A stretch of DNA of 64,000 bases, taken from Salinispora arenicola. Its GTDB lineage: Bacteria > Actinomycetota > Actinomycetes > Mycobacteriales > Micromonosporaceae. Location of the stretch: assembly GCF_006716065.1 (NCBI RefSeq), contig NZ_VFOL01000001.1, positions 3,348,001-3,412,000 of the forward strand. The letters run 5' to 3'. Under the pieces are notes generated by a model. That model was not told where the DNA came from and did not search any database. It saw nothing but the letters and a program-made list of their open reading frames with translations. A program made the translations under genes and the position numbers. Positions within the stretch are counted from its first letter, which is position 1. Each line of letters starts with the position of its first letter. Positions 3,189-39,105 of the stretch are shown in pieces.

Positions 3189-3283
3189 TCGCTCGCTATC
3201 CTTGACTCCGCCCGTCCGCCGGTCGGTGCCACCGTGCCCGTTCTGCCCGGGCGAGGATCGCAACGAGAGGACTGTCCCCAGCC

Positions 3284-3544
3284 ATGCCGATCTGGTTCGC
3301 GTACACGTTGATCGTGTTGCTGGTCATTACGAGCGTCATGCTCGTTTTGTTGATCCTGCTACACCGGGGTAAAGGTGGTGGGATGTCCAGCATGTTCGGC
3401 GGCGGGGTCAGCTCCAGCCTGGCGGGGTCGTCGGTCGCCGAGAAGAACCTGGACCGCTACACCGTCCTGGTGGGCATCGTCTGGTTCGCCTGCATCGTCG
3501 GGCTGGGTCTCTGGCTGCGCCTGCAACAGGCCAGCGTCGGCTGA
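3284..3544 (+). CDS. secG: Preprotein translocase subunit SecG
   Basis: Small non-essential subunit of the SecYEG translocon in the plasma membrane. The 86-residue product has two hydrophobic segments (about 4-26 and 60-80) that flank a glycine-rich loop, HRGKGGGMSSMFGGGVSSS, the SecG hallmark. It lies 95 bases after tpiA, as in many actinobacteria, and is followed by a strong hairpin at 3568-3599. GAGAGG at about 3264-3269 is a rather distant ribosome binding site for the ATG. Confidence 0.93.
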   Translation: MPIWFAYTLIVLLVITSVMLVLLILLHRGKGGGMSSMFGGGVSSSLAGSSVAEKNLDRYTVLVGIVWFACIVGLGLWLRLQQASVG

Positions 3545-3567
3545 GTAGCCCGTCGCGTCGTCAGTCC

Positions 3568-3599
3568 GCGCGCGGTCCGTCTCCTGACGGGCCGCGCGC
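3568..3599. terminator. Terminator hairpin between secG and pgl
   Basis: GCGCGCGGTCCGTC (3568-3581) pairs with GACGGGCCGCGCGC (3586-3599) around the loop TCCT: 14 pairs with one G-U in RNA. There is no T-run, as is common in high-GC actinobacteria. It sits just after secG; pgl ends towards it from the other strand 160 bases away, so it may serve both directions. Confidence 0.7.
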
Positions 3600-3761
3600 A
3601 GTCCGTTTCACCCACCCACCCCGGCCGCGTGTCGCCGCTCTCCGGCCGCCCGGCGCGGCTGGTCGCGCGGCCGGCTGCCGCCGACAGTCGATTGCCGAGA
3701 TCCGAAGCCCCGACGGTGCGGTCGCTCGGACCGGAGACGACGGGGCGGGCGCTGTGGCGGC

Positions 3762-4532
3762 TCAGCGCAGGCTGCGGAAGCGGGCGGGTAGGTCGGCCGC
3801 GGCAGCCCGGTCCAGCAGCCAGAGCGTCCGGCTGAGCCCCTGCACTCCGGCGGCCGGTAGCTGCACCGGCCCCGCACCAGCCAGTGCCATGCCCACCGCG
3901 CGTGCCTTGTCCGCGCCGCTGGCGATCAACCACACCTCCTCGGCGGTGTTGATCGTCGGTAGGGTGAGGGTGGTGCGGATCGGCGGTGGTTTCGGGCTGC
4001 CCCGGACGGCACTGACCGGCCGGCTCTCGTAGTGCACCGGATGCTCCGGGAAGACCGACGCCACATGCCCGTCCTCCCCGATCCCCAGCAGGAGCACGTC
4101 GAAGTGGGGGAGAGCGGCGGTGCCCGGGCGAGCCGCCCGGGCGAGTTCCGCCGTGTACCGGGCGGCGGCCTCCTCCGGGTCGCCGCCGGCTGGGTCGTCC
4201 GAGGCCGGCATCGGGTGCACCCGCGCCGGGTCCAGCGGCACCGTGTCCAGCAGCGCCGCCTGTGCCTGCGTCGCGTTGCGCTGTGGGTCACCGGCGGGCA
4301 GGAACCGCTCGTCGCCCCACCACACGTCCACCCGGGACCAGTCGACCGCCTCCCGGGCCGGCAGCGCGGCCACCGCGCGGTAGACGGCCGCGGCGATCCG
4401 CCCGCCGGTCAACACCACCGACGCCTGGCCGCGCCCGGCCTGGGCGTCCAGGAGCCGGACCAGCAGCCGGGCGGCCACCGCCTGCGCCAGCAGATCGGCG
4501 TCGGCGTGGACAGCGACACTCGCCTCACTCAT
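3762..4532 (-). CDS. pgl: 6-phosphogluconolactonase
   Basis: Hydrolyses 6-phosphoglucono-delta-lactone to 6-phosphogluconate, the second step of the oxidative pentose phosphate pathway. The 256-residue protein has the NagB/SugarP-isomerase fold; VDVWWGDERFLP and the GIGEDGHVASVFP active-site loop (general-base His) are typical of bacterial Pgl. The start ATG at 4532 overlaps the opcA stop by four bases (ATGA), so it is last in the tkt-tal-pgi-zwf-opcA-pgl operon. An upstream in-frame extension reads through opcA sequence and is rejected. Confidence 0.95.
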   Translation of the reverse strand: MSEASVAVHADADLLAQAVAARLLVRLLDAQAGRGQASVVLTGGRIAAAVYRAVAALPAREAVDWSRVDVWWGDERFLPAGDPQRNATQAQAALLDTVPLDPARVHPMPASDDPAGGDPEEAAARYTAELARAARPGTAALPHFDVLLLGIGEDGHVASVFPEHPVHYESRPVSAVRGSPKPPPIRTTLTLPTINTAEEVWLIASGADKARAVGMALAGAGPVQLPAAGVQGLSRTLWLLDRAAAADLPARFRSLR

Positions 4533-5542
4533 GCCCGTGCGACTCCAGGGTGCGTGCTGATCCCCGCCTCGGCCCGACGGGCCTCCGTCGGATCCTTCCA
4601 CACATGTACCCGCTGCGCAGGGCGGTGCTCCAGCCCGGTGAGCCCCGCCGCGGCACCGAGCGCCTCCGCGTACACCTGGTCGGCGTCGAGTCGGCGCAAC
4701 TCCTCGGCCAACTCGTCTCCGAGCGGCCGGCGTACCAGCGGCAGCAGGCGGTCCTCCTGCCCGGAGCGCCGGAACACGGCCATGCCGTCGTTGCGGGTCA
4801 GCGTCAGCTCGTCGCCGTTGGCACAGCGCAACTGCACCTCGTGCATCCGGGGGTACTCGTCGGCGTGCCGCCACTGCGGGTCGATCCCCAGCCGGGCCGC
4901 CAGCCAGCCGCGCATCAGCGCGGCCGTCGGATCGGTGGACGGTGCCACCACCGTGGCTTCGGTGACCTGCGCCTCGGTGGTGTCGAACGCGCCCGCCACG
5001 AGGGTGCGCCACAACGTGATCCGGGTCCAGGCCAGGTCGGTGTCACCGGGCGCGTAGTCGTGCGCCCGCCGCCGCAGCGCCTCGATCGGGTCGTCGGCTT
5101 GTGCGGCGTCGGTGATCCGCCGGTCGGCGACCACGCCGAGGAAGTCGGTGGCGATCTCGGCCGGCGGGTCGGCGTGCCACCAGGTCACCACCGGCACGTC
5201 CGGCACCAGCAGCGGCATCACCACCGACTCGGCGTGCAGGGCCAGCCGTCCGTACATCCGGGCCACCACCGCCTCACCGGGGCCGAGCCGACCACCCACG
5301 ACGATCTCCGCGTCCAGCCGGTTCCGGTCCCGATCCACGTCCGAACGAACCACGATCAACAACCGGCACGGGTGGGCGGCGGAGGCGATCGTCGCCGCGG
5401 CCTCCGCCTCGCGGACCCGCTTCTCGTCGACCACCACGATCAGGGTGAGCGCCATGCCGCTGGCCACCCCGCCGGCGCTGCGCCGCTCAGCGGCGAGCGC
5501 CTTGACCACCTCGTTGCCGGTGGTGTCCCACAGCCCGATCAC
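4529..5542 (-). CDS. opcA: Glucose-6-phosphate dehydrogenase assembly protein OpcA
   Basis: OpcA-family partner of glucose-6-phosphate dehydrogenase. In actinobacteria and cyanobacteria it is needed for the assembly or allosteric activation of Zwf. The 337-residue product begins VIGLWDTTGNEVVKAL from a GTG at 5542 with a GGGAGG site nearby, and keeps the conserved VPDVPVVTWWHADPP segment. A longer in-frame reading from 5644 overlaps the 3' end of zwf and lacks family support. It lies 34 bases after zwf and overlaps pgl by four bases, consistent with a shared transcript. Confidence 0.93.
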   Translation of the reverse strand: MIGLWDTTGNEVVKALAAERRSAGGVASGMALTLIVVVDEKRVREAEAAATIASAAHPCRLLIVVRSDVDRDRNRLDAEIVVGGRLGPGEAVVARMYGRLALHAESVVMPLLVPDVPVVTWWHADPPAEIATDFLGVVADRRITDAAQADDPIEALRRRAHDYAPGDTDLAWTRITLWRTLVAGAFDTTEAQVTEATVVAPSTDPTAALMRGWLAARLGIDPQWRHADEYPRMHEVQLRCANGDELTLTRNDGMAVFRRSGQEDRLLPLVRRPLGDELAEELRRLDADQVYAEALGAAAGLTGLEHRPAQRVHVWKDPTEARRAEAGISTHPGVARA

Positions 5543-5576
5543 AGGAGCCTCCCGGTCTGCTCGCGTCGCTCGCTGG

Positions 5577-7094
5577 TCACGCCCGCCGCCAGGCGCGGCC
5601 CTCCCGGGCCAGCATCTCATCGGCGGGGCGGGGGCCCCACTCACCGGACCGGTAGGGCTCCGGCGTGGCGCCCGCCCAGGCCCGCTCCAGCGGGTCCACC
5701 ACCGCCCAACTCTGTTCGACCTCGGCGGCGTCCGGAAAGAGAGTCCGGTCGCCGATCAGCACGTCCAACACCAGCCGTTCGTACGCCTCCGGGCTGGCCT
5801 CGGTGAATGCCTCGCCGTACTGGAAGTCCATCGCGATGTCGCGGACCTCCATCGCGCTGCCGGGCACCTTGGAGCCGAACTTGAGTACCACGCCCTCGTC
5901 CGGTTGAACCCGGATGACGAGCTGGTTGTTGCCCAGCGACTCGACGTCGGCGTCGTCGAACGGCAGGTGCGGGGCCTTCTTGAACATGACGGCGACCTCG
6001 GTCACCCGCCGGGGCAACCGCTTGCCGGTGCGGATGTAGAACGGAACCCCCGCCCACCGGCGGTTCTGGATGCCCAGCCGCACCGCGACGTACGTCTCGG
6101 TGGTCGAGTCCGCTGGGACGTCCTTCTCGTTCAGGTAGCCGATCGCGCGTTCGCCGCCCACCCAGCCGGGTAGGTACTGGCCACGTACGGTTCCCTGGCT
6201 CACATCCTCGGGCAGGGTGATGGCCTTGAGTACCTTGAGTTTCTCGGCGCGGATCTCGTCGGCGTCGAAACTGGTGGGTTCCTCCATGGCCACCAGCGCG
6301 AGCAGCTGAAGGAGATGGTTCTGGAGCACGTCGCGGGCGGCGCCGGCCGTGTCGTAGAACCCGGCCCGGCTGCCGATTCCCACGTCCTCGGCCATGGTGA
6401 TCTGGACCGAGTCGACGTACTTCGAGTTCCACAACGGCTCGAACAGGTTGTTGGCGAACCGTAGGGCGAGGATGTTCTGGACGGTCTCCTTGCCCAGATA
6501 ATGGTCGATGCGGAAGACGTCCCGGCTGGTGAAGACGTCGTCGACCAGATTGTTGAGTTCCGTCGCGGAGGGCAGATCGTGCCCGAACGGCTTCTCGACG
6601 ACGACCCGACGCCACCCGCCGCACGTGGCGTTGTCCGCCATTCCGGTACGGGCGAGTTGCTTGAGCACCACCGGGAACGCAGCCGGGGGGATGGCGAAGT
6701 AGAAGGCGGCGTTGCCGGGGATGCCGTGTGACTGTCGTAGTGCCTGCAGTGTGGACGCCAGCCGGTCGAACGCGTCGTTGTCGTCGAACGACCCGCCGAC
6801 GAACTTGATGTTGCCGGCCAGCCGCGCCCACACCTCGTCCCGCCACGGTGTGCGGGCGTACGCCTTCGCCGCCTTGTGGGCGAGCGACTCGAAGTCGCCG
6901 TCACCCCAATCCCGTCGGGCGAAGCCGAGCACGACGAAGCTCGGGGGAAGCAGCCCCCGGTTCGCGAGGTCGTACACCGCCGGTAGCAGTTTTTTGCGGG
7001 CCAGGTCTCCGGTGACGCCGAAGATGACCAGGGCACAGGGTTCCGGGATGCGTGGCAGCCGTCGATCCTGCGGGTCGCGCAACGGGTTTGTCAC
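5577..7094 (-). CDS. zwf: Glucose-6-phosphate 1-dehydrogenase
   Basis: Oxidises glucose 6-phosphate to 6-phosphogluconolactone with reduction of NADP+. The 505-residue length is typical. The N-terminal dinucleotide motif is [13 protein letters not shown], the substrate and catalytic signature is [13 protein letters not shown] (catalytic His), and [10 protein letters not shown] is the conserved coenzyme-site Lys/Pro segment. The start ATG gives [10 protein letters not shown]. It lies 31 bases after pgi and just before opcA, whose product assists it. Confidence 0.96.
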
Positions 7095-20693: not shown

Positions 20694-21998
20694 ATGACCA
20701 CCATCGCGATTCCACCGGGCATGCCGCAGTACGGCGACGTGCCACGCTACGACGTGGCGGCGGTGCGCGCCGACTTCCCGATCCTGGACCGGACGGTCAA
20801 CGGGCACCCGCTGGTCTACCTGGACAGCGCGAACACGTCGCACAAGCCACGGCAGGTGCTCGACGTACTGCGGGAGCACTACGAGCGGCACAACGCCAAC
20901 GTGTCGCGTTCGGTTCACACGCTGGGCACCGAGGCCACCGAGGCGTACGAGGGGGCGCGGGCCAAGGTCGCCGCCTTCATCAACGCTCCGAACCCGGACG
21001 AGGTGGTGTTCACCAAGAACTCCACCGAGGCGATCAACATCGTGGCGTACGCCTTCTCGAACGCGTCGCTGCGCCCCGACGCCGACCCGCGGTTCCGGTT
21101 GGGCCCCGGAGACGAGGTGGTGATCTCCGAGATGGAGCACCACTCGAACATCGTCCCGTGGCAGCTGATCTGCGAGCGTACCGGCGCCACGTTGCGCTGG
21201 TTCCCGGTCACCGACCACGGTCGACTCGACGAGTCGGGTCTGGCGGACCTGGTCACCGAGCGGACGAAGATCGTCTCACTGGTGCACATGTCCAACATCC
21301 TCGGCACGGTCAACGCCACGTCCCGGATCACCCAGCGGGTCCGTGAGGTCGGCGCACTGCTGCTGCTCGACTGTTCGCAGTCGGTGCCGCACATGCCGAT
21401 GGACGTGGTCGACTACGACGCGGACTTCATCGTCTTCACCGGGCACAAGATGTGTGGCCCGACCGGTATCGGAGTGCTCTGGGGCCGGTCCGAACTGCTC
21501 GCGGCGATGCCGCCGGTGCTCGGCGGCGGGTCGATGATCGAGACGGTGGCGATGTCGGGGTCGACCTTCGCCGCGCCGCCGGCCCGGTTCGAGGCGGGCA
21601 CCCCACCGATCGCCGAGGCGGTCGCGCTGGGCGCGGCGGTGGACTACCTGTCCGGCGTCGGCATGCGGGCCATCCAGTGGCACGAGAAGCATCTCACGGC
21701 GTACGCCCTGGACGCTCTGGCGACGGTGCCCGGGTTACGGGTCTTCGGGCCGACCGTGCCGGTGGGTCGGGGTGGCACGATCTCGTTCGCGCTGGGCGAC
21801 ATTCACCCGCACGACGTTGGGCAGGTGCTCGACTCGCTGGGTGTGCAGGTGCGGGTCGGTCACCACTGTGCCCGTCCGGTCTGCACCCGGTTCGGCGTGC
21901 CCGCGATGACCCGGGCCTCGTTCTACCTCTACACCACCACGGAGGAGATCGACGCCTTGGTGGCGGGTCTGGAGCGGGTGCGGAAGGTGTTCGACTGA
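20694..21998 (+). CDS. sufS: SufS-type cysteine desulfurase
   Basis: Class II pyridoxal-phosphate enzyme that removes sulfur from cysteine and passes the persulfide to SufU. The 434-residue product has the group II landmarks: NTSHKPRQVLD near the start, EMEHHSNIVPWQ, the PLP lysine in FIVFTGHKMCGPTGIGVLWG, and the persulfide-forming cysteine in GHHCARPVCTRFGVPA. The gap from sufC is 25 bases with an AGGAAGGG site. Its stop codon shares one base with the sufU start. Confidence 0.96.
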   Translation: MTTIAIPPGMPQYGDVPRYDVAAVRADFPILDRTVNGHPLVYLDSANTSHKPRQVLDVLREHYERHNANVSRSVHTLGTEATEAYEGARAKVAAFINAPNPDEVVFTKNSTEAINIVAYAFSNASLRPDADPRFRLGPGDEVVISEMEHHSNIVPWQLICERTGATLRWFPVTDHGRLDESGLADLVTERTKIVSLVHMSNILGTVNATSRITQRVREVGALLLLDCSQSVPHMPMDVVDYDADFIVFTGHKMCGPTGIGVLWGRSELLAAMPPVLGGGSMIETVAMSGSTFAAPPARFEAGTPPIAEAVALGAAVDYLSGVGMRAIQWHEKHLTAYALDALATVPGLRVFGPTVPVGRGGTISFALGDIHPHDVGQVLDSLGVQVRVGHHCARPVCTRFGVPAMTRASFYLYTTTEEIDALVAGLERVRKVFD

Positions 21999-22474
21999 TG
22001 CAGGTTGATCAGCTCTACCAGGAGATCATCCTGGACCACTACAAGCACCCGCACGGCCGGGGGCTGCGCGACGCCGACGACCCGGCGGCGTCCGTGGCCG
22101 AGGCACACCACGTCAACTCGACCTGCGGTGACGAGGTCACCGTCCGGGTGTCCACCGACGGCGCGGTGCTGCACGACATCTCGTACGACGGGATGGGCTG
22201 TTCGATCAGCCAGGCCTCGGCGAGCGTGCTGCACGAGTTGCTCGCCGGCCGTCCGGCCGGTGAGGCGCTCGCGGTGCACGCGGCGTTTGTGGCGTTGATG
22301 TCCGGCCGGGGCGAGGTCACGCCGGACGAGGAGGTACTCGGTGACGGGGTGGCGTTCGCGGGCGTCGCCCGCTACCCCGCCCGGGTGAAGTGCGCGCTGT
22401 TGCCGTGGATGGCGTTCAAGGACGCCGCGGCACGCGCCGGTGTGGGCGCGAGCCCGACGGAGGTTCAGGGATGA
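21998..22474 (+). CDS. sufU: Zinc-dependent sulfurtransferase SufU
   Basis: Accepts persulfide sulfur from SufS in Gram-positive SUF systems. The 158-residue protein begins MQVDQLYQEIILDHYKHP and has the three conserved cysteines of the U-type family in NSTCGDEV, GMGCSISQAS and VKCALLPWMAF. The ATG overlaps the sufS stop by one base; in the same frame a much longer reading runs through sufS and is rejected. The stop overlaps the next ATG (ATGA). Confidence 0.95.
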   Translation: MQVDQLYQEIILDHYKHPHGRGLRDADDPAASVAEAHHVNSTCGDEVTVRVSTDGAVLHDISYDGMGCSISQASASVLHELLAGRPAGEALAVHAAFVALMSGRGEVTPDEEVLGDGVAFAGVARYPARVKCALLPWMAFKDAAARAGVGASPTEVQG

Positions 22475-22884
22475 GCGAGAACACTGCCACCGAGGCCACT
22501 GCTGAGGGCGCGACCAGCGGCACGGCCCCGAACGGTGTGCCGCCCGCCGCGAAGGCGGGCAAGGCCGCCGTCGCCGACGTCGAGGAGGCGATGAAGGACG
22601 TCGTCGACCCCGAGTTGGGCATCAACGTGGTCGACCTGGGCCTGCTGTACGGCGTCCATGTCGACGACGACAACATCGCCACCCTGGACATGACGCTCAC
22701 CTCGGCTGCCTGCCCACTGACCGACGTGATCGAGGACCAGGCGAGGTCTGCCCTGACCACCGGGCCGGGCGGCGGCCTGGTCAACGAGATCCGGATCAAC
22801 TGGGTGTGGCTTCCGCCGTGGGGCCCGGACAAGATCACCGACGAGGGACGCGAGCAGCTCCGCGCGCTGGGCTTCAACGTCTGA
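22471..22884 (+). CDS. sufT: SUF-associated DUF59/MIP18 family protein (SufT-like)
   Basis: A 137-residue member of the DUF59 (MIP18/PaaD) family, linked to iron-sulfur cluster maturation or transfer. After a low-complexity Ala/Thr-rich N-terminus (about residues 1-30), the core shows EEAMKDVVDPELGINVVDLGLLYG and the conserved TLTSAACPLTDVIEDQ with the family cysteine. It is the last gene of the suf operon, with an ATGA overlap to sufU. Catalytic details are not established for this family. Confidence 0.9.
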   Translation: MSENTATEATAEGATSGTAPNGVPPAAKAGKAAVADVEEAMKDVVDPELGINVVDLGLLYGVHVDDDNIATLDMTLTSAACPLTDVIEDQARSALTTGPGGGLVNEIRINWVWLPPWGPDKITDEGREQLRALGFNV

Positions 22885-30608: not shown

Positions 30609-31115
30609 CTACGGTCGGCGGCGAGCGGGACGCAGGAGGCGTACCCGTCCGGCGAACTGAATCGCGACGGCGCTGCCGGCGTGCCCCCAGGACGGCAGCC
30701 GGCGTGGCCGTGGCGGGCGGCCCGGCTTCGGGTAGCGGTGCCCGGCCTGCCAGACGGCCAGTTCCTCCGCACCCAACGGCGGCAGCTCACCGACGGCGCG
30801 CAGGTCCCGGGCAAGATCCCAGCCGTCGCGGTGGGCGCCGGCGGTCGGTCGCCCTTCGGCCCAGCGCCCGAACACCTCCGGCCACCGTGGGCCCAGGCCG
30901 GCGGCGAGCAGCGGCCAGTTCCGGGCCACCTCGCCGGCCCGCTTCCGAAGAAGAGCGCGTCGCGCGGCGGCGAGCGGTTCCGGGGTGAAGCCCGGTGGCG
31001 GCGGGGCACCGGCAGCCAGGGCGGCGACGAGGGCGGCCTGTCGTGCGGCCAGGGTGGGTACCGCTGGGCCGGTGGTTCGCGCCGCCGGTACGCCGACGGG
31101 GCCGGTGGGAATCAT
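30609..31115 (-). CDS. Probable partner protein of the DUF692/MNIO enzyme
   Basis: A 168-residue protein that I cannot place with certainty. It is encoded directly after the MNIO gene with an ATGA overlap. The middle part (LLRKRAGEVARNWPLLAAGL, then GPRWPEVFGRWAEGRPT and ARDLRAVGELPPLGAEELAVW) recalls the helical partner proteins (DUF2063/MbnC-like) that accompany MNIO enzymes and bind their peptide substrate. The C-terminus is basic and proline-rich. No membrane segment or metal motif is seen. The partner role is inferred from position and weak resemblance. Confidence 0.6.
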   Translation of the reverse strand: MIPTGPVGVPAARTTGPAVPTLAARQAALVAALAAGAPPPPGFTPEPLAAARRALLRKRAGEVARNWPLLAAGLGPRWPEVFGRWAEGRPTAGAHRDGWDLARDLRAVGELPPLGAEELAVWQAGHRYPKPGRPPRPRRLPSWGHAGSAVAIQFAGRVRLLRPARRRP

Positions 31116-31930
31116 GTGACCACCGGGAATCCGCTGACGGCGGCGAGCGTGTCCAACTCGGCGCGGAGGACAGCGGCCGGGGGATAGTTCCCGTCCCGTT
31201 CCAGCAGCAGGGCCGGCGGCCGGCGGCGCGCGCACAACTCGCCCACCAGGTCGAGTGCACCCCGGGGCACGGGATCGGTGTGCGTGTCGTGGTAGTAACC
31301 GTCCCGCTCGGCCCCGCCGGCCACGTGAGCGTACGCGACCCGTTCCAGCGGCAGCCGGTCCAGCAGGTCGAGCGGGTCGGTGCCGCGGTTGCGGGCGTTG
31401 GCATAGACGTTGGCAACGTCGAGCAGCAAATGGGCGCCGGTTCGGTCCAGGATCTCGGTGAGGAACGCGGCCTCGTCCAGTTCGTCGTCGGGCCAGTCGA
31501 AGAGCGCGGCGATCGGTTCCAGCGCGATCGGCACCGGCAGCTCGGCCTGGGCGCGGGCGACGTTGGTGCAGACCGCCGTCACCGCCTCTCTGCTGCGCGG
31601 CAGGGGTAGCAGGTGCCCGGCCTCCAACCCACCGGCACGGACGAAGGCGATGTGCTCACTGACCAGCGTTGCGTCGGTCAGGACCGCCACCGCGGCCAGG
31701 TGGGCTACTCGGGCGGGGTCGACCGGCTCGGCGCCGCCGAGCGAGAGCCGCACTCCGTGGGGGACGACGGCCACGCCGCGTTCACGCAGGTCGGGGAGCC
31801 CCGCCGGCAGCGGACCGGCGGTCGGCACCGATTCGGCGATCACCTCGACGAAACGTAACCCGGGGAGTTCGGCGACGAAGCCAGCGATTTCGGGCCGCCA
31901 GCCGATACCCACCCCAATCGGACCGGTCAT
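31112..31930 (-). CDS. DUF692 family multinuclear non-heme iron oxidase (MNIO)
   Basis: TIM-barrel enzyme of the MNIO family (relatives MbnB and TglH), which oxidise Cys, Asp or other residues in peptide substrates. The 272-residue product keeps the metal-ligand motifs: PHGVRLSLGG, VSEHIAF, IALEPIAALF, LLLDVANVYANARN, AHVAGG, YYHDTHTDPVP and LLERDGNYP. The ATG at 31930 overlaps the stop of the upstream membrane-protein gene (ATGA); a GTG at 31939 is an alternative start. The reaction here is unknown. The Gly/Cys-rich tail of that neighbour is the obvious candidate substrate. Confidence 0.88.
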   Translation of the reverse strand: MTGPIGVGIGWRPEIAGFVAELPGLRFVEVIAESVPTAGPLPAGLPDLRERGVAVVPHGVRLSLGGAEPVDPARVAHLAAVAVLTDATLVSEHIAFVRAGGLEAGHLLPLPRSREAVTAVCTNVARAQAELPVPIALEPIAALFDWPDDELDEAAFLTEILDRTGAHLLLDVANVYANARNRGTDPLDLLDRLPLERVAYAHVAGGAERDGYYHDTHTDPVPRGALDLVGELCARRRPPALLLERDGNYPPAAVLRAELDTLAAVSGFPVVT

Positions 31931-32841
31931 CCTCCGCACCCGCCACCGCCACCACCACCACTACTGCCACCACCGTCACCGCCACCACCGTCACCGCAGC
32001 CGCCAGTTCCGTAGGCCGCGCCTCCGCCAGCTGGTGACCCGCCGGCCAGGGACTGCTGCTGGATCTGCGCCTGCTCGGCGAAGCTCGGATCCATCGCCCA
32101 CAGGGTGGCCGTGCCGAAGAGGGCGACGCCCATCGCGGCTCCGCCAGCGCCGTAGGTGGCATAGGCCGGTTTACGGCGGGGCGCCAGGTGCGTGTATCGG
32201 TGGCGTAGCCGGCGTAGGACGTGGTCGGCGGCGCGGGTGCGCCATGGACGCCGGTAGAGCAGCACTGTCACGATCAGCAACGGGAGTTGGGTCAGTGCCA
32301 GCCAGCCGACGGGCCGTCCGTTCGCCAGACCGGCCCCGAGCCGCAGCGTGCCGATCGCGAACAGGACGGTAAGTAGCAGTGCCGCGTTGCGTAGGGCGGC
32401 CCGCTGCCTGGCGGACAGCGCCAGGCCGTGTTGCTCCAGGTCGACGCGTAACTGGTGGACGGCCTGTCGTACTGCCTGGTCTCCGCTCAGCTCTTGGGCG
32501 TCAAGGCCCCTGTGGGCGGCGCGGTGGATGGCCTGGTCCAGTGGAGTGCTGCCGATGGGCAGTGCGCCGCTGGTGGTCAACCGCCGCTCCGGGCGCACGT
32601 CGACCGCTCCCTCGGTGCGCAGCCCCGCGAGAGATGCCCAGACAGCCAGCGGCGTACCGCCGCTGAGGTAGGCGACCTGCTGGGGGCTGAGCAGGCCGGC
32701 GTCGTACGCCGATCCGGTCAGGACCTGGTGTCGATGTATGAGTGCGCCGACGACGAGCACGGCGGCGGTCACCAGGTACAGCTGGAGGAAGACCGGGCCG
32801 GGGATGCCCCAGGTATCGCCTGGGGCGGCGAGGACGGTCAC
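31927..32841 (-). CDS. TIGR04222-like membrane protein with Gly/Cys-rich C-terminal tail
   Basis: A 304-residue membrane protein. A first hydrophobic segment (about residues 14-35) is followed by a cytosolic region with YDAGLLSPQQVAYLSGG, then two adjacent membrane segments (about 150-200) and a further one near 245. It ends in a low-complexity tail: residues 280-304 are nearly all Gly with Ser, Asp and just two cysteines, C282 and C302. This matches my memory of the TIGR04222 family, found next to DUF692 genes. GTG 32841 has AGGAG six bases upstream. The gene overlaps the MNIO gene. Confidence 0.8.
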   Translation of the reverse strand: MTVLAAPGDTWGIPGPVFLQLYLVTAAVLVVGALIHRHQVLTGSAYDAGLLSPQQVAYLSGGTPLAVWASLAGLRTEGAVDVRPERRLTTSGALPIGSTPLDQAIHRAAHRGLDAQELSGDQAVRQAVHQLRVDLEQHGLALSARQRAALRNAALLLTVLFAIGTLRLGAGLANGRPVGWLALTQLPLLIVTVLLYRRPWRTRAADHVLRRLRHRYTHLAPRRKPAYATYGAGGAAMGVALFGTATLWAMDPSFAEQAQIQQQSLAGGSPAGGGAAYGTGGCGDGGGGDGGGSSGGGGGGGCGG

Positions 32842-33068: not shown

Positions 33069-33641
33069 TCAACGACGGCGGACGGCCTCTTCGACCAGGT
33101 TGAGTACCGGTCCGAGGTCGCCGGCCGGTCGGCCCATCGCCAGGTGCAGGACCAGGCCGTCGTATGCCAGCTCAAGGAACTGGGCCAGCACGTCGATGGA
33201 GATGTCGTCGCGGAGCACTCCCGCCTCCCGCTGGCGACGCAGGCGATCGCGGGTGGCTTCGGCGATGGCTGCGGACCGTTCGGCCCACCGCCGGGCGAAT
33301 GCGGGGTCGGTGCGGAGCCGGCGCGAGACCTCCAGCTGGCTGCCCAACCAGCCGGTCGTGTCGGGGGAGACGGCCCGTGCCAGCAGGTCCCGCATCACCT
33401 GCACCAAGCCGTTGCGGGCGACGGTCTCGACCATCGCCGCCGCGTCGTCCTCGGCCACGGCGAGGAAGAGTGAGTCCTTGTCGCGGAAGTGGTGGAAGAT
33501 CGCGCCACGGGACAGCCCGGTGGCTTCCTCGAGACGGCGCACGGTGGCGCCCTCGTATCCGTGCCGGGCGAAGCAGACCCGGGCGGCGGTGAGAATCTCC
33601 TGCCGGCGCGCGTCGAGTTGGTCCTGGCTTACTCTGGGCAC
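33069..33641 (-). CDS. acnR: TetR-family regulator of aconitase (AcnR)
   Basis: A 190-residue TetR protein very close in sequence to corynebacterial AcnR, the repressor of the aconitase gene. The N-terminal HTH reads RHGYEGATVRRLEEATGLSRG and AIFHHFRDKDSLFLAVA; the C-terminal part (LVQVMRDLLA, SRRLRTDPAFARRW) also follows AcnR. The GTG start at 33641 is preceded 34 bases upstream by a palindrome found also before acn (36-39 kb). Unlike in corynebacteria the two genes are not adjacent but 2.5 kb apart. Confidence 0.88.
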   Translation of the reverse strand: MPRVSQDQLDARRQEILTAARVCFARHGYEGATVRRLEEATGLSRGAIFHHFRDKDSLFLAVAEDDAAAMVETVARNGLVQVMRDLLARAVSPDTTGWLGSQLEVSRRLRTDPAFARRWAERSAAIAEATRDRLRRQREAGVLRDDISIDVLAQFLELAYDGLVLHLAMGRPAGDLGPVLNLVEEAVRRR

Positions 33642-36150: not shown

Positions 36151-38997
<2,847 letters not shown>

Positions 38998-39105
38998 GTC
39001 GTACTCCTTCACACCAGTGGCCGTGAGCAGTCCTTTGCAGTCTGTCGCACCGGTGCTGGCGGTGCCGTGCTTAGGTGGCCCTTACCCGCACTGACTGCAC
39101 GCCAA

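Follow-up and report, generated by a model that had tools for sequence, protein, structure and literature searches.

In Salinispora arenicola, a stretch of 64,000 nucleotides (assembly GCF_006716065.1, contig NZ_VFOL01000001.1, positions 3,348,001 to 3,412,000 of the forward strand; the whole stretch is called the window here) carries a minus-strand operon of three genes, at 30609..32841, encoding a TIGR04222 membrane protein with a glycine-rich, cysteine-containing tail, an enzyme of the MNIO family (MbnB/TglH/ChrH, DUF692) and a partner protein. As judged from comparative sequence analysis and fold prediction, the MNIO and its partner probably modify the tail cysteines of the membrane protein, because these cysteines are conserved together with the MNIO gene and because the partner's predicted fold resembles TglI and MbnC and MNIO-partner fusions occur in Streptomyces. 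The operon is real and well conserved and probably works in outline as was first proposed, an idea that has already been predicted in print. The proposal that TIGR04222 tails are MNIO substrates was made by Antoine et al. 2025 (PMC12452194), who give examples from Micromonospora, and what is added here is evidence for that published prediction, a sharpened site (C302) and a set of clear exceptions.

The operon and its three products

The three open reading frames run from the membrane protein through the MNIO to the partner, with the following features (strand in brackets).

31927..32841 (-): TIGR04222 membrane protein, 304 amino acids, GTG start; open reading frame with an NCBIfam score of 176.1 bits against a cut-off of 43
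31930..32049 (-): Gly/Ser/Cys low-complexity tail, residues ~265-304, proposed MNIO substrate; from the translation and family tails
31996..31998 (-): codon of C282, a variable position; Salinispora pacifica locus L224 has the terminal cysteine alone
31936..31938 (-): codon of C302, in the terminal Cys-Gly-Gly-COOH, conserved; from family tails ending CGG
31927..31930 (-): ATGA overlap of membrane protein stop and MNIO start
31112..31930 (-): MNIO (MbnB/TglH/ChrH, DUF692), 272 amino acids; PF05114 E 7e-78, nine iron ligands
31112..31115 (-): ATGA overlap of MNIO stop and partner start
30609..31115 (-): MNIO partner, 168 amino acids, PME-type 2; relatives labelled PF26136, SCO6045-like C-terminal

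The three overlapping genes of the original prediction are thus present, with ATGA at both junctions, and translation bears out that C282 and C302 are the only cysteines of the membrane protein; the tail, which had been given as 25 residues, is Gly-rich as described but nearer 40 residues long. A GGAG precedes the GTG start, and the protein covers positions 1-229 of the 229 of the TIGR04222 profile. It has no match in Pfam, hence is no DUF2282 precursor, and against the sequences of solved structures it gave weak matches, the best at E 0.054 and mostly to the Gly tail. Hydropathy and the positive-inside pattern give three clear transmembrane (TM) segments and a weak fourth, TM4 having a mean hydrophobicity of 1.25 against a threshold of 1.4 for TM segments. 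In all 63 aligned sequences, loops 1 and 3 are richer in lysine and arginine than are the N-terminus, loop 2 and the tail, a pattern that fits an outside N-terminus, four TM segments and a tail placed outside. The genome (5.63 Mb, one contig) contains one TIGR04222 match and one PF05114 match at E<=0.001.

The second protein passes the PF05114 cut-off with 262 bits against 25 and holds all nine iron ligands listed for TglH (PMC10880893), at H58, H93, E138, D171, N174, H202, D215, H217 and E244, as expected of the DUF692 enzyme with complete metal motifs that had been predicted; each of the nine is identical in 116 of 116 MNIOs surveyed in the family, the window's own counted. Iron-dependent oxidation of a peptide substrate is plausible as its predicted activity. 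The closest named model is BufB (bufferin maturase, NF050167), for which the enzyme scores 181.7 bits against a cut-off of 310, and it likewise stays under the equivalog cut-offs of HvfB (NF003818; 151.2 vs 360), ApyH (103.3 vs 400), ChrH (53.2 vs 600) and MbnB (25.6 vs 325). Membership in the bufferin or methanobactin groups was rejected because the scores lie under these curated cut-offs. Two solved-structure sequences match the enzyme, 3bww and the DUF692 chain of the TglHI entries.

The third protein matched nothing in Pfam or NCBIfam at E<=1 and nothing among solved-structure sequences at E<=10. Its relatives listed, at least 120 in number, carry the precomputed label PF26136, and several are named 'SCO6045-like C-terminal'. 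The best matches of its predicted fold are known MNIO partners, the TglI and MbnC subunits, in agreement with the resemblance claimed originally; NGO1945 (3dee) is not among the structure matches listed. With regard to the features of PME-type 2, the gene lies directly 3' of the MNIO gene, and the window protein and two relatives have no Pfam match and so no DUF2063 signature. Whereas PME-type 2 is given for at least 10% of the clusters in PMC12452194, the partner gene directly follows the MNIO gene in 114 of 114 testable Micromonosporaceae loci, L075 and L177, which have no room for a partner, standing outside this count (G and L numbers are our handles for genomes and loci). MNIO and partner are fused in most Streptomyces loci: a partner-like domain is present at all 24 Streptomyces MNIO loci (E 1.2e-13 or better), in one frame with the MNIO in 17 by script and in three more by inspection of the sequence. 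The partner label takes its name from SCO6045, which may be the MNIO fusion; in S. coelicolor, H2O2 raised this gene 3.01-fold alongside cysteine genes (PMC4991794, Table 1).

Tail cysteines beside and away from MNIO genes

The family sample consisted of 200 Micromonosporaceae genomes, in which the best 150 TIGR04222 matches were placed against the PF05114 matches. Within 3 kb of an MNIO gene lie 123 of the 150, spread over 116 loci; all 123 share the strand of the MNIO gene and precede it. A membrane protein was taken as immediately upstream when its stop fell less than 300 nucleotides before the MNIO domain, which gives 112 proteins including the window's own, and all 112 have at least two tail cysteines (two in 11, three in 24, four in 42, five in 29 and six in 6). 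A strict test over 30 residues is passed by 110 of them, the two misses holding two and three cysteines. Gly or Ser stands directly before 442 of the 443 cysteines and Gly-Gly directly after 366 of them, and six is the spacing seen most often. In these tails, which amount to 4453 residues, 443 cysteines stand against a single arginine, and since Cys and Arg codons are each one base change from Gly codons, the tail cysteines are more than chance would leave.

The tails end in Cys-Gly-Gly-COOH in 109 of the 112 proteins, the third-last codon being TGC in 98 and TGT in 11. Among named GTDB contigs, which overlap the family sample, CGG ends 71 of 71 counted tails, with one to seven cysteines each; these come from 80 loci, of which eight have no TIGR04222 match (L261 without the gene, seven starting at a contig end) and one, L293, was dropped because its frame runs on through the tail. 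At L293 the frame, 3267-6305, does not stop at the end of the Gly/Cys tail but continues into the genes beside it, owing either to an assembly error or to an indel within the repeat of the tail. In Salinispora pacifica (L224) the terminal cysteine is the only one in the tail. As 109 of 112 tails end in CGG and Salinispora pacifica keeps the terminal cysteine alone, C302 is by sequence conservation the conserved site and C282 is not, and the two cysteines are not equivalent.

Most Cys-less TIGR04222 tails occur where no MNIO gene is near. The Micromonospora paralogues at a distance from any MNIO gene have short tails, with cysteine in 0 of 12, and in six MNIO-less Micromonosporaceae genomes 0 of 7 TIGR04222 matches pass the strict test, these being 7 of 23 matches with 16 weaker ones left out; in one such genome, G074, the tail is a Gly run with a single terminal cysteine. 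Elsewhere in the class, one of a chosen selection of 20 matches from MNIO-less genomes passes, in G278, whose contig ends at the place expected for the MNIO gene, and several others have few cysteines, outside any Gly/Cys repeat. At MNIO-linked loci beyond Micromonosporaceae and Streptomyces, 15 of 24 of which were examined, at least three tail cysteines are present in 15 of 15 and the strict test is passed in 13 of 15. In PMC12452194 more than a quarter of the proteins have no C-proximal cysteine, whereas here tail cysteines track adjacency to the MNIO gene.

Exceptions and rival explanations

The link between tail and MNIO is strong in most lineages seen and is not universal, and a number of observations weigh against the proposed modification. 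A Cys-tailed TIGR04222 protein lies at the locus in 9 of 24 Streptomyces MNIO genomes, and 15 of 24 have none within 1.5 kb of the matches.

L344, L347, L353-L365: Streptomyces MNIO loci without a nearby Cys-tailed protein, most with a fused partner

Within Micromonosporaceae, the operon of G075 has a degenerate tail with one cysteine, G058 and G113 have no membrane protein at the locus, where a stub of sequence before the MNIO gene remains (G058 has a Cys-tailed copy elsewhere in its genome), and G020 has a Cys-tailed protein, but a tblastn search found no partner. Gly/Cys tails are also present in 12 of 27 TIGR04222 proteins away from MNIO genes, a count that rests on the best 150 matches of the family sample and in which all 27 belong to MNIO-bearing genomes. 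Finally, the tail remains inside if the weak TM4 does not span the membrane. The tail survey suggested in the original prediction has given a divided answer, with cysteines in every one of the 112 adjacent Micromonosporaceae tails and no Cys-tailed protein nearby in 15 Streptomyces genomes; homologous operons lacking tail cysteine altogether had been named there as speaking against the idea, and such loci occur in Streptomyces, the tail of G075 being nearly Cys-less. The proposal that the tail is the MNIO substrate is upheld by co-conservation, partner fold and fusions and is weakened by these loci.

In the family sample, 33 MNIO matches do not lie beside a listed TIGR04222 match, and 17 of them were examined. 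Six pass the Gly/Cys scan, G055 and G020 are Cys-tailed and were missed by it, G058, G113 and G075 are the exceptions given above, and six have neither partner nor Gly/Cys tail, some of which look like other kinds of MNIO. At two loci where the membrane protein is gone, the stub before the MNIO gene spans 2395-2640 (L218) and 2440-2625 (L221); the latter stub is Gly-rich and still overlaps the MNIO start, and locus L221 has the same sequence as L261 of Plantactinospora alkalitolerans. The tail-less Streptomyces TIGR04222 paralogues (L380, L386 and similar) form a separate clade, and 13 of the 14 inspected have a CxxxC at the end of TM1, the exception being G466.

Several other explanations of the conserved tail were considered. 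The tail cysteines could stay unmodified and serve directly as metal or disulphide ligands outside the cell, while the MNIO and its partner act on a substrate encoded elsewhere. This is unlikely, although it would account for the 15 Streptomyces genomes in which the MNIO and partner domain persist with no Cys-tailed protein beside them and for the Gly/Cys tails in the 12 TIGR04222 proteins away from MNIO genes, since across the MNIO-less genomes one of 27 examined TIGR04222 proteins passes the tail test, and that one at a contig end, and since gene order is nearly fixed, with an in-frame four-nucleotide overlap of membrane protein stop and MNIO start at 104 of the 112 adjacent loci (ATG 89, GTG 14, TTG 1). 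The MNIO could instead modify another part of the TIGR04222 protein, such as the N-terminal CxxxC of the tail-less Streptomyces paralogues, the tail being a spacer or anchor. The cysteine pair four residues apart in 13 of those 14 paralogues speaks for this idea, which we regard as improbable; the TIGR04222 domain itself is without cysteine in 102 of the 112 MNIO-adjacent Micromonosporaceae proteins, an argument against it that is not decisive because MNIOs acting on non-Cys residues are known.

Least probable by far is that the cysteines have drifted into a GC-rich Gly repeat and that the terminal CGG is kept only through the overlap with the MNIO start. The last codon is indeed GGA in 91 of 112 tails, as the ATGA overlap demands, but the start overlap does not reach the cysteine codon at -3, which is either TGC or TGT, and the ratio of 443 cysteines to one arginine largely refutes chance cysteines in a Gly repeat. 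Modification of the tail cysteines by the MNIO and its partner thus stays the preferred reading.

Known systems, genomic setting and proposed mechanism

The closest described counterparts are the TIGR04222-MNIO-PME-type 2 clusters of PMC12452194, which have the same three genes in the same bacterial family, with a Cys/Gly/Ser tail placed outside and, in Micromonospora, a partner modelled as PME-type 2. A term search of the main text of that paper, to which its figures and supplements do not belong, found neither the terminal CGG nor the MNIO-partner fusion. The original prediction had the end of a full-size membrane protein as a substrate of a kind not known to it as described biochemically, and this novelty does not hold: the idea is printed there for TIGR04222 and Micromonospora, and a C-terminal case of more than 30 kDa is given in the preprint of Chen et al. 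2025 (PMC12636315), where MelH and MelHc modify the C-terminus of the 34-kDa MelA1 and a seven-residue C-terminal tag on GFP suffices for DybH. The MelA1 system resembles the operon in having an MNIO, a separate small partner and, as target, the C-terminal end of a full-size protein, close to its terminal Cys-Gly motif. It differs in that its MNIO belongs to the ChrH subfamily, its motif is CPACGMG, its substrate carries a secretion signal instead of being a membrane protein and its -4 Da product was shown on co-expression (PMC12636315).

TglHI and TglA are similar in the iron ligands of the enzyme, the fold of the partner and a C-terminal Cys target, and differ in the small scaffold peptide and the excision of a beta-carbon (PMC10880893) and in that the cysteine of TglA is added to the peptide by an enzyme (PMC9016710). 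Among bufferins and captophorins (BufB, HvfB; PMC13097082), BufB is the nearest named model of the window MNIO, which differs in scoring under the BufB cut-off and in belonging to an operon without a DUF2282 precursor and without a partner bearing the DUF2063 signature. No report of a modified TIGR04222 protein, as a mass change, was found in the literature searched, which was covered mostly by titles and abstract starts.

Around the operon, the following genes were identified.

33069-33641 (-): TetR regulator; NCBIfam TetR-family matches, all below cut-off
36151-39012 (-): aconitase acnA, over cut-off
20694-21998 (+): SufS-type cysteine desulfurase, over cut-off
22390-22884 (+): SUF-associated/PaaD-like protein, below cut-offs

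The upstream TetR gene, to which NCBIfam gives TetR-family matches below cut-off only and which may be AcnR, is present at 113 of the 116 family loci and at 73 of the 80 GTDB loci, and a downstream SDR gene at 73 of 116 family loci, where flanks are short, and 80 of 80 GTDB loci. Within the family sample an MNIO match is found in 36 genomes of the same genus besides the window's own, and one same-genus genome, G175, is among the 20 listed of 66 without an MNIO match. The locus looks like one that is vertically kept and not like a mobile cluster. The iron-sulphur cluster genes lie ~8 to 10 kb from the operon.

In the mechanism proposed here, the MNIO would oxidatively modify the C-terminal Gly/Ser/Cys tail in the cytosol, the partner would present the tail to it, and the conserved target would be the cysteine of the terminal Cys-Gly-Gly, C302. 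The modification would take place before the weak TM4 and the tail cross the membrane, since the tail is predicted outside and a cytosolic enzyme must act before it crosses, and TM4 may delay insertion. The modified tail would then end outside the membrane as an anchored peptide, perhaps serving, as bufferins do, as a metal (copper) ligand of the thiooxazole type; the tail chemistry and a metal-binding role are guesses by analogy and are doubtful. In the boldest reading, which is less likely than not, the operon would be a surface device of the core genome, in which the MNIO turns the tail cysteines, before export, into an array that binds metal and stays permanently anchored on the outer side of the membrane, in a chromosomal setting near aconitase that nearly all sampled genomes of the Micromonospora/Salinispora type share.

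For an experimental test, the survey narrows the question to one residue (C302) and one three-gene set, which is suited to expression in E. coli. If the proposal is true, the product would be the first of an MNIO that is an integral membrane protein, as far as the literature was searched, and modification of the tail would mean that MNIO chemistry is not confined to peptides and secreted proteins but takes in integral membrane proteins as well. As the locus is chromosomal and has been retained in most of the genomes sampled from this large family of actinomycetes, a basic role in stress or metal handling would then be indicated, and not the production of a secondary metabolite.
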